Of a DNA stretch of 35,557 bases, positions 13,645 through 16,882 are shown in pieces. The DNA is taken from NCBI GenBank assembly GCA_026706345.1, contig JAPOYX010000147.1:1-35557 (forward strand), in the 5' to 3' direction. The notes under the pieces were generated by a model. The model ran no database searches, had not been told where the DNA came from, and was given only the letters and a program-made list of their open reading frames with translations. This DNA is from Gemmatimonadota bacterium. Its GTDB lineage: Bacteria > JAAXHH01. The translations under genes were made by a program, and so were the position numbers. How positions within the stretch are numbered: position 1 is the stretch's first letter; every line of letters begins with the position of its first letter.

Positions 13645-15765
13645 ATGTCTCAGACAACCCTGCAACAGGATGCAGAGCGACAACCGGACGAAGCGGCGTC
13701 GGAAGTTCCGGCAACGACGTCGCCTGTCCGAAAGCGTCCGTTGACCTACGTATTTACCGGAGGCGGAACGGCGGGGCACGTCTATCCCGGGCTGGCTATC
13801 GCCGACGAGGTGCGGGCCCGGAACCCCGATGTCCGCATCGTTTACATCGGCGCCCGGGGCAGAATGGAAGCCTCCCTCGTGCCGAAGCGGGGCTATCCGA
13901 TCCACCTGGTCTACGCCCGGGGGCTGCCGTCGGCGAGGCAGCCTCTTGCGTTTCTGCGCTTCGCCCTCTGCACCGGCTTCGGCGTCCTCCAGAGCCTGTT
14001 CCACCTGTCGAGACACCGGCCCCGCATGATCGTGGCCACGGGCGGATACGCCAGCAGTCCCGTCCTCCTGGCCCACTGGATCCTCAAATCGCTCCGGCTG
14101 TCGGGCGCCAGTCGATGTTTCGTCCACGAACAGAACGTCGTGCCCGGGAAGGTGAACCGGCTTGCCGGCCGGATCGCGGACCGCATCGGGGTTTCCTTTG
14201 AAGCGTCGCTGCCGTATTTCCCTCCGGAGAAGGCGACGTGGGCGGGCTACCCGGTGCGGCGGGAGATCGGCGCCGTGTCCAGGGACGGCGCGCGGATTTC
14301 GCGGGGTCTGCCGTCCGCCGCCAAGGTCGTATTCGCCTTCGGCGCATCCTCGGGCGCCCGGTCCATAAACCGGGCCGTGGTCGCCGCGCTGCCCCGTTTG
14401 CTGTCCAGGCCGGATATCCACGTCATCCACGTCACCGGACAGACTAGAAGTTCGGATTACGACGCTGAACGAGACACCCGGGACCGCCTGGAGAGAGTCG
14501 ACCTCACCGATGAGCAGCGGTCGAGATACCACCAGTCGGACTATTCCCACGAAATCGAAACGCTCTACGCCGCCAGCGACCTAGTCATCGGCAGATCCAG
14601 CGCCGGCGTCGTCACCGAGATCGGTATCTGCGGGATCCCCTCCATACTCGTACCGCTGCCCTACGCGCCCGGCGACCACCAGGCCGTGAACGCCAGGACG
14701 CTCGAATCGCGCGGCGCGGCCCGCGTCGTGTACGAGTCGCTTTCGGTGGAGAACGGCCAGACCATTGGCGCGGTCGACGGGGAGCGCCTAGCCCGCCTGG
14801 CCTTCGAGATCCTGGACGACCCGGACCGCTGCGACGCCATGCGCCGGCGAGCGCGGGAGACCTTCGACCGCGGAGGGCTGGACCGGATCGTCGACCTGTT
14901 GGATCACATGCTGGCGGACCGCCTGGACCTGCCGGCAGACCGTGTCCTTTCCAACGGTAAACCCGGCGAACCCGACATTGCCGGGCGTGCCGTTCCTTCC
15001 GATAACGCGCTTTCCGCGTTTTCCCTGGTCCGCCGGTTCGCGCAAGGCCGCGATCAGGCCTTCATCGAATCCGTGGGGGAAGACTACCTGAAGTACCGCG
15101 TCGACGGATACCTGAAGGCCACGCGCTGGCAGATCCGGAACGAGGGCGTCAAACTCGTCGGACTGCTCGGTTACCGGGACCGCCTGCCCTTCGTCCTGGC
15201 GCTGCTCCGCGACAAGACGCCGGCGCCCCTGCTCCAGCGGATGTTTGGCGGCGACTACCGCCAGGTCGGCTTCATCCGCCGAAACGCCGTGACGACGATC
15301 GGCCAGCTCGGCGTGTACGATGCAGCGGTGCGCGCCACGCTGCTGGACCTGTTGGCGGATCCGTACTACGAGGTGCGTTCCGCGGCCGCGCGGGCCTTTG
15401 CCGCCCTCGACCCGGAAACGGGGGACGCCGACGAGGAGGCCCTGGACGGCCTGCGCCGGCTGTTGCGGGAATCCTCCTTCGAAATCAGGTCGGCCGCCAT
15501 CCTCGCCCTGGGCAGACTGGGCGACGGCGCCGTCACGGAATGGCTCAGGCCCTTTTACCAGGATCCGAACGGGAAGGTGCGCCAGGCCGTCATCGACGCC
15601 CTGACCGACCTGGTCAGACGGAAGTCGATCATCGATCTGGACGGACTGCACGAAGAGCTCGACGGCATCCTGGTCACGTCTAACCACTTCGACCCGGACT
15701 TTCCGATCAGGCGGACGCTGAACCGGTTGATCGGCATGATACGCCACCAGCAGGAAACCCCGTGA
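13645..15765 (+). CDS. murG: MurG-like glycosyltransferase with C-terminal HEAT repeats
   Basis: Residues about 32-430 form a two-domain GT-B transferase of the MurG family, which adds GlcNAc to lipid I on the cytoplasmic side of the membrane. The glycine loop GGGTAGHVYPGLAIA (39-53) is clear, as is the donor-site region with PSILVPLPYAPGDHQAVNAR. Some signature positions differ from common MurG: GASSGARSIN for GGSQGA, and GRSSAGVVTE where SRAGA-type sequence is usual. After a short linker, residues about 450-690 are HEAT-like helical repeats (EVRSAAARAFAALD, EIRSAAILALGRLG, KVRQAVIDAL). Standard MurG is about 360 residues, so this is a fusion; at 706 residues it is nearly double. No Shine-Dalgarno precedes ATG 13645, and the first 30 residues look non-conserved. 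A TTG at 13741 is an alternative start. Seven bases separate it from mraY. Confidence 0.85.
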   Translation: MSQTTLQQDAERQPDEAASEVPATTSPVRKRPLTYVFTGGGTAGHVYPGLAIADEVRARNPDVRIVYIGARGRMEASLVPKRGYPIHLVYARGLPSARQPLAFLRFALCTGFGVLQSLFHLSRHRPRMIVATGGYASSPVLLAHWILKSLRLSGASRCFVHEQNVVPGKVNRLAGRIADRIGVSFEASLPYFPPEKATWAGYPVRREIGAVSRDGARISRGLPSAAKVVFAFGASSGARSINRAVVAALPRLLSRPDIHVIHVTGQTRSSDYDAERDTRDRLERVDLTDEQRSRYHQSDYSHEIETLYAASDLVIGRSSAGVVTEIGICGIPSILVPLPYAPGDHQAVNARTLESRGAARVVYESLSVENGQTIGAVDGERLARLAFEILDDPDRCDAMRRRARETFDRGGLDRIVDLLDHMLADRLDLPADRVLSNGKPGEPDIAGRAVPSDNALSAFSLVRRFAQGRDQAFIESVGEDYLKYRVDGYLKATRWQIRNEGVKLVGLLGYRDRLPFVLALLRDKTPAPLLQRMFGGDYRQVGFIRRNAVTTIGQLGVYDAAVRATLLDLLADPYYEVRSAAARAFAALDPETGDADEEALDGLRRLLRESSFEIRSAAILALGRLGDGAVTEWLRPFYQDPNGKVRQAVIDALTDLVRRKSIIDLDGLHEELDGILVTSNHFDPDFPIRRTLNRLIGMIRHQQETP

Positions 15766-15772
15766 GCGCCCT

Positions 15773-16882
15773 ATGATCTATCATCTCGTCACACATCTTT
15801 TCGATACCGTCGATTCGCTCTCGTTTCTGCGTCTTTTCCAATACCTGAGCTTCCGCGCGATCTGCGCGGCGCTGACGGGTTTCGGCGTCGCGCTGCTTTT
15901 CGGCCAGCGCATCATCCGCCTGCTGTACGTGAACCACGTGCGGGACAATCCCCGGACGCACGGCGCGTTGTCCTCCGCCTCGAAGGCCGGCACGCCGCTC
16001 ATGGGCGGCCTGCTGATCATCGTGTCCATCTTCGCCAGCGTGCTGCTGTGGAGCGACCTTTTCAACCGCTTCACCCTGATCTTCCTGTGCGCCTTGATCT
16101 GGTTTTCCCTGTTCGGGTTCATCGACGACTACCGGAAAATCAGGCACCGGGACAGCGACCGCGGCCTGTCCCAGGCCACCAAGTTGTTCTTCCAGGCGGT
16201 TTTCGGCCTCGGCTTCGGCCTGGTCTTCCTGGTGCCCGGCCTGTCTCCGGTGTCGGCGGAAATCGCCTCGGAACTCTATCTTCCCTTCGTCAAGGACCCC
16301 GTCCTCGACCTGGGCTGGTGGTATCTGCCCTTCATCGCCTTCGTCGTCGTGGCCATCGCCAACGCGGTCAATTTCGCCGACGGACTGGACGGACTGTCCA
16401 TCGTCCCGGTTTCGTTTACGGTGGTCGTGTACGGGGTGTTCGCCTACGTCATCGGCAACGCCATCTACTCGGGATACCTGCAGTTTACCTTTCTTCCGGG
16501 CAGCGGTGAACTGACGGTGATCTGCGCGGGGGTCTTCGGCGCCTGCATGGGATTCCTCTGGTACAACGCCTATCCCGCCCAGGTCTTCATGGGCGACGTG
16601 GGCGCCCTGCCGCTGGGAGGCATCGTCGGCACCCTCGCCGTACTGCTCAAGCAGGAATTCCTCTTCGTCATCACCGGCGGGATCTTCGTGGCCATGGCCT
16701 TCTCGGTCCTGGTGCAGGAGAAGATCGGGATCAAGTGGCTCGGCCGGCGCATCTTCTACATGGCGCCGCTCCATCACGCCTTCCAGTACCGGGGCCTGGC
16801 CGAGACCAAGGTCGTGATCCGGTTCTGGATCATCGCGGGCATCCTGGCGATCATCGGCCTGTCGACCCTCAAGATCAGGTAA
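15773..16882 (+). CDS. mraY: MraY-type phospho-MurNAc-pentapeptide transferase
   Basis: A 369-residue polytopic membrane enzyme that transfers phospho-MurNAc-pentapeptide to undecaprenyl phosphate, giving lipid I, the substrate of MurG. Family landmarks: KAGTPLMGG (71-79), the Asp pair DDYRK (118-122), NAVNFADGLDGL (197-208), FMGDVGALPLGG (272-283) and HHAFQYRGLAE (334-344). Ten or so hydrophobic helices are apparent. Differences from common MraY include YNAYPAQ for YNAPPAK and HHA for the His triplet, while the Asp residues remain. It is coupled to the MurG-HEAT gene. No other dcw genes (mur ligases, fts genes) are present, so this is a separated lipid I/lipid II pair or a second copy. Confidence 0.88.
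   Translation: MIYHLVTHLFDTVDSLSFLRLFQYLSFRAICAALTGFGVALLFGQRIIRLLYVNHVRDNPRTHGALSSASKAGTPLMGGLLIIVSIFASVLLWSDLFNRFTLIFLCALIWFSLFGFIDDYRKIRHRDSDRGLSQATKLFFQAVFGLGFGLVFLVPGLSPVSAEIASELYLPFVKDPVLDLGWWYLPFIAFVVVAIANAVNFADGLDGLSIVPVSFTVVVYGVFAYVIGNAIYSGYLQFTFLPGSGELTVICAGVFGACMGFLWYNAYPAQVFMGDVGALPLGGIVGTLAVLLKQEFLFVITGGIFVAMAFSVLVQEKIGIKWLGRRIFYMAPLHHAFQYRGLAETKVVIRFWIIAGILAIIGLSTLKIR

Follow-up and report, generated by a model that had tools for sequence, protein, structure and literature searches.

A MurG-HEAT fusion directly upstream of mraY and an apparently undescribed HEAT subfamily linked to MraY

Organization of the MurG-HEAT locus

The stretch of DNA analysed here, referred to as the window (35,557 nucleotides, from a bacterium assigned to Gemmatimonadota), carries at 13645-15765 of its forward strand a single open reading frame of 706 amino acids with no internal stops. 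As the preliminary description had proposed from the sequence, this frame runs uninterrupted from a MurG-type glycosyltransferase into HEAT repeats, and Pfam recognizes GT28 N, GT28 C and HEAT_2 along the same chain. The limits given there (residues 32-430 for the GT-B fold, followed by about 240 residues of repeats) agree well with the family alignment, which places the GT-B domain at residues 34-425, a linker at 426-455 and the HEAT domain at 456-706. Four segments can be distinguished, all on the forward strand. Residues 1-33 (13645-13743) form a weakly conserved N-terminal extension that is probably disordered, with identities of 0-75% within the family and pLDDT values below 50. The GT-B domain (13744-14919) is delimited by PF03033/PF04101, by the match to TIGR01133, by alignment with the MurG structures 3S2U and 1F0K, and by invariant columns; the linker (14920-15009) is recognized in the family alignment by its variable length, its 22-70% identity between relatives and its low pLDDT; and the HEAT-repeat domain (15010-15762) is defined by Pfam HEAT_2/HEAT, by alignment and conservation within the family, and by an AlphaFold2 model. 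Only 7 bp separate the stop codon from the start of mraY (15773-16882, forward strand, 369 amino acids), which scores 302 bits against TIGR00445 (cut-off 192) and is the single match in the genome. The AlphaFold2 model of the whole chain, made with 10 close relatives in the alignment, has a mean pLDDT of 67.5 and a pTM of 0.39, so that the placing of the domains relative to each other is unusable; a fold search with this model returns nearly all GT-B proteins.

The MurG part has the features expected of the enzyme. GT28 N (PF03033) covers residues 36-182 (E 1.2e-26) and GT28 C (PF04101) residues 228-364 (E 1.3e-21), and the best PDB matches to the GT-B fold are MurG proteins, both by sequence and by fold. 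The best stretch for TIGR01133 comprises residues 36-365 and reaches 207 bits, below the NCBIfam equivalog cut-off of 250.25 bits, which is an annotation threshold and not a defining feature, being passed by 230 of 367 genomes with a MurG match and by nine of ten bacterial controls. H45, HEQN 161-164, S235, E325, Q346 and N349 are invariant in 11 relatives, and the catalytic and substrate motifs (GGxGGH, HEQN, a GGSxGA-like motif, SE, and the Q and N near residues 346-349) align with those of Escherichia coli and Pseudomonas aeruginosa MurG. A second, ordinary MurG was considered and rejected, as neither a second MurG nor a second MraY was found elsewhere in the genome; the sole MurG co-occurs with MraY, Mur ligases, FtsW and a PBP. 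Judged by these residues and this gene complement, the window protein would be catalytically active in the transfer of GlcNAc to lipid I. The glycine loop (13759-13779) reads GGTAGH in the window only, and GGTGGH in the relatives.

In the genome of the window the dcw cluster is nearly complete (mraW, ftsI, murE, murF, ftsW, murC, murB, ftsQ, ftsA and ftsZ; locus L103, G000:C81:1-17000), but mraY, murD and murG are missing from their normal positions in it, and both mraY and murG are found outside the cluster, at the MurG-HEAT locus.

A HEAT subfamily found beside mraY

The domain search of the C-terminal part bears out its assignment to HEAT repeats, with 103.5 bits for HEAT_2 (PF13646, E 7.6e-30, gathering cut-off 27.7) and 45.9 bits for HEAT (PF02985, cut-off 23.5). 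Modelled alone by AlphaFold2, the domain is predicted to be an all-alpha solenoid of 16 helices (pLDDT 84.8, pTM 0.81), whose closest PDB folds are alphaRep/HEAT structures. Members of the subfamily share the signatures WxxRNxGVKL, GFIRRN, DPYYEVR (also DPYWEVR), FE(V/I) and a C-terminal LxTSxxFxPxFx(I/L)(K/R) (also LTSxxFxPxFxLK); conserved positions in the window protein are W495, R498, N499, K503, R545-N547, Y574-R578, E613, R646 and F682-R689. The HEAT domain of the window is a full-length match to the subfamily profiles A3 and A5 described below. It apparently represents a distinct, MraY-linked subfamily that is undescribed.

Related genomes belong to one phylum, whose named MAGs bear the labels Latescibacterota, Gemmatimonadetes or Zixiibacteriota. 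All 16 genomes of this phylum (G000-G015) contain the gene or fragments of it. A single continuous MurG-HEAT frame is seen in 14, i.e. in every genome that has the junction on one contig, and in the remaining two (G007 and G014) the gene is interrupted by contig ends. In all of them mraY lies directly downstream, G012 retaining only its start at a contig end. Within the family the HEAT domain (50-91% identity) is about as conserved as the GT-B domain (56-89%), and the linker and the N-terminus vary in length and sequence; conserved HEAT and GT-B domains with a variable linker are as expected for two folded domains on a tether. The possibility that a frameshift or a missed stop near residue 435 conceals two separate genes, raised in the preliminary description, was rejected: there is no internal stop, and the same single frame in all 14 uncut genomes of the phylum, and in unrelated lineages, excludes a frameshift or assembly artefact. 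It had also been asked there if the extension could be standard in the phylum and already described. The former is the case; as for the latter, no description was found, and a search of open-access papers for MurG-HEAT, mraY-HEAT or MurG-MurJ fusions gave nothing relevant.

The suggested taxonomic survey was extended to 384 genomes with a HEAT-only profile (A3) built from the HEAT domain of this phylum alone. Full-length relatives were detected in 24 genomes outside the phylum, and in 22 of these HEAT lies directly 5' of mraY, in the same orientation; since all 24 genomes have one mraY each, the linked MraY is the sole MraY in all 22. The HEAT domain takes several forms. It is in one open reading frame with MurG in 17 of the 24 genomes, it is encoded separately, with murG on one side and mraY on the other, in two (loci L074, L076 and L099 show this arrangement), and in five, referred to as class C, it is a free gene directly before mraY with murG not nearby (loci L086, L087, L091, L092 and L093). 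In two class C genomes, G234 and G092, a gene of the PF07555 type (beta-N-acetylglucosaminidase-like) is located at the HEAT-mraY pair or close to it (L086:1991-3619 and L093:6553-7797). The two exceptions to the mraY linkage, G096 and G366, both of family f84, keep MurG-HEAT and have mraY elsewhere. With a wider profile (A5), full-length members score at least 199 bits, one divergent member 60 and generic HEAT proteins at most 54, a gap that is inflated because A5 was built from the members themselves; the finding of members rests on the phylum-only A3. The next weaker match of the wider profile, in G119, is again a HEAT gene flanked by murG and mraY. A chance neighbourhood of a generic HEAT gene was rejected, as none of 12 generic HEAT matches used as controls had mraY, murG or murJ within about 4 kb, as against mraY beside 25 of 27 members (Fisher p 2e-8, kinship among members ignored). 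In family f96, three genomes (G108, G246 and G375) have two MurG matches each, and in each case one of the two is joined to a divergent HEAT domain. The MurG-HEAT proteins of family f54 (L081, L082 and L083) carry N-terminal extensions of about 130-370 amino acids, and Pfam recognizes nothing in the extensions of L082 and L083.

Judging by the order of the family labels, about one genome per phylum seems to have been sampled first, and then a second and a third, with which two phylum searches agree; read from this sampling order, the module would occur in about 14 phylum-level groups. On the MraY and HEAT trees the arrangements change five and four times, respectively, against 10.5 changes expected with shuffled labels, which fits a mostly vertical inheritance of each arrangement, near-copies adding to the tree signal. 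In most lineages, but not all, gene context ties HEAT to MurG. In G057, a genome with a free HEAT gene, the dcw cluster holds murE, murF, murD, ftsW, murG, murC, murB and ddl, and mraY alone is missing from it and is placed with the HEAT gene. As HEAT adjoins mraY even where murG is elsewhere, the context ties it to MraY first.

The lipid II flippase MurJ is at times part of the same arrangement. A frame of 1316 amino acids in G329 comprises MurG, MurJ (PF03023, E 1e-89) and HEAT and is followed by mraY. Polypeptides of this kind are also present in two further genera of the same family (G386 and G387), and the module is absent from the other families of that phylum. The three loci, L079:6034-9981 (reverse strand), L097:4427-8395 (reverse strand) and L098:2314-6300 (forward strand), encode proteins of about 1316-1329 amino acids, each with mraY next. 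The interval of about 150 amino acids between MurG and MurJ has no Pfam match; its FHA-like look in G329 and G386, noticed by eye, was dropped for this reason. MurJ has 14 transmembrane helices and both ends in the cytoplasm, so that MurG and HEAT of the fused chain would face the cytoplasm. The fused polypeptides make MurJ a possible second partner of HEAT. In G296 and G163 a separate murJ is found directly upstream of murG-HEAT. No convincing MurJ was found in G000-G015, where the best PF03023 match is a 475-residue frame that scores 49 bits over part of the model; another flippase of the MOP superfamily may serve in this phylum.

Proposed role of the HEAT domain and rival explanations

The reading that we consider on balance probable is that the HEAT domain attaches to MraY and retains MurG, and sometimes MurJ, there for a local hand-over of lipid I and lipid II. 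The solenoid would bind the cytoplasmic face of MraY and keep MurG beside it, lipid I released by MraY would pass directly to MurG and be converted to lipid II, and in the one family with MurJ in the same chain the hand-over would be extended to export. Gene neighbourhood and fusion denote functional linkage, not contact, and it is from this linkage that we infer MraY binding and channelling. An interaction between MurG and MraY of E. coli, reported as cited in PMC6420597, counts in favour of docking, and native mass spectrometry data in which affinity gradients alone account for lipid passage (PMC9046198) count against it, as do the two genomes of family f84 that keep MurG-HEAT away from mraY. 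The preliminary description had proposed a tether to MraY, a cytoskeletal protein or a Mur ligase. The first partner gains support from the place of HEAT, free or fused, 5' of the sole mraY in 22 of 24 genomes; for the other two the gene context offers nothing, neither for MreB nor for a Mur ligase, and MraY is therefore the favoured partner. Since MurG is not joined to HEAT in class C, tethering of MurG cannot be the only role of the domain.

This last point makes the main rival a regulatory one, because where HEAT is free beside mraY and MurG is not part of the arrangement, the domain must have a function on MraY alone. The domain would then regulate the activity of MraY as a sensor of lipid II, of the carrier lipid or of some other signal, and its fusion to MurG would couple supply to demand. 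In P. aeruginosa, MraY is reported to be under feedback control (PMC10914600). However, a positional role better explains the fusions to MurG (17 of 24) and to MurG-MurJ, and Pfam and fold searches of the domain found neither a ligand pocket nor an enzyme signature, but HEAT repeats only; we regard regulation as unlikely. Somewhat less probable again is a localisation tag that recruits the lipid II enzymes to the divisome or elongasome through FtsZ, MreB or a relative. HEAT solenoids do bind proteins, E. coli MurG has been reported to contact MreB (PMC6420597), the genome of the window encodes FtsZ and FtsA, and the best PDB folds belong to protein-binding alphaRep proteins, of which several were solved with tubulin. 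Those complexes, though, contain artificial binders obtained by selection and are uninformative, and the domain adjoins mraY rather than ftsZ or mreB in 22 of 24 genomes, with no cytoskeletal gene seen among its annotated neighbours.

A module for membrane binding or stability, which would keep a peripheral enzyme at the membrane or aid the insertion or assembly of MraY, would suit the peripheral nature of MurG and the recurrence of conserved Arg, Lys and Trp residues (W495, R498, K503, R545, R546 and R646). Yet the charges of the domain cancel out (35 K+R versus 35 D+E), its closest folds are soluble protein-binding solenoids, and the neighbouring MraY is an integral protein that makes an anchor unnecessary, all of which renders this explanation improbable. 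Most members come from draft genomes, often split into numerous contigs, as would suit an artefact of fusion or assembly, or an operon neighbourhood that arose by chance and has no functional meaning. Such an origin is scarcely credible given that independent assemblies of the phylum and of outside lineages agree, that the generic HEAT controls lie away from mraY and murG, and that HEAT is as conserved as MurG. To return to docking on MraY, a broader version of it, in which a HEAT scaffold in more than a dozen phyla nucleates a MraY-MurG-MurJ assembly line that passes on the undecaprenyl-linked precursor, is possible but should be taken as tentative. If true, the scaffold would have been overlooked as a small separate gene, or as an extension of MurG or MurG-MurJ, mostly in uncultured bacteria.

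Relation to known peptidoglycan enzymes and scaffolds

It is debated in peptidoglycan synthesis whether MraY, MurG and MurJ form a physical complex or are linked by affinity gradients only. Natural MurG-HEAT and MurG-MurJ-HEAT proteins beside mraY offer single-chain material for structural and kinetic work on this question. These steps are essential and are targets of antibiotics, to which an interface between HEAT and MraY, should it be real, would add a new one.

Fusions and scaffolds of peptidoglycan enzymes are of a known kind, and it is the MraY-linked HEAT subfamily that appears to be undescribed. Compared with MurG (undecaprenyldiphospho-muramoylpentapeptide beta-N-acetylglucosaminyltransferase; GT28, TIGR01133), the window protein keeps the GT-B fold and the catalytic motifs and is the only MurG of its genome, but it scores below the equivalog cut-off, carries a linker and a C-terminal HEAT domain of 250 residues, and is encoded outside the dcw cluster, directly before mraY. 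Proteins with HEAT_2 or HEAT repeats (PF13646, PF02985), of the CpcE/NblB type, and alphaRep proteins share the repeat sequence and the solenoid fold, whereas the present domains stand apart as a discrete subfamily, marked by signatures of their own and by an almost constant link to mraY. MurG and MreB have themselves been proposed as scaffolds for Mur enzymes (PMC6420597). Both cases envisage a cytoplasmic precursor complex at the membrane; there, MurG or MreB is the scaffold, and here it would be a dedicated solenoid whose gene tracks mraY. Known Mur fusions include MurE-MurF of Bordetella pertussis and MurC-MurG (PMC6420597). They also join peptidoglycan enzymes in one chain, as a proposed aid to precursor hand-over (PMC6420597), but they consist of two enzymes, unlike the non-catalytic HEAT scaffold, which can also be encoded by a gene of its own that is linked to mraY. 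MurG frames of 770-890 amino acids without the MraY-linked HEAT domain, possibly MurG-MurC fusions, occur in G038, G063, G078, G084, G187, G209, G380 and other genomes.
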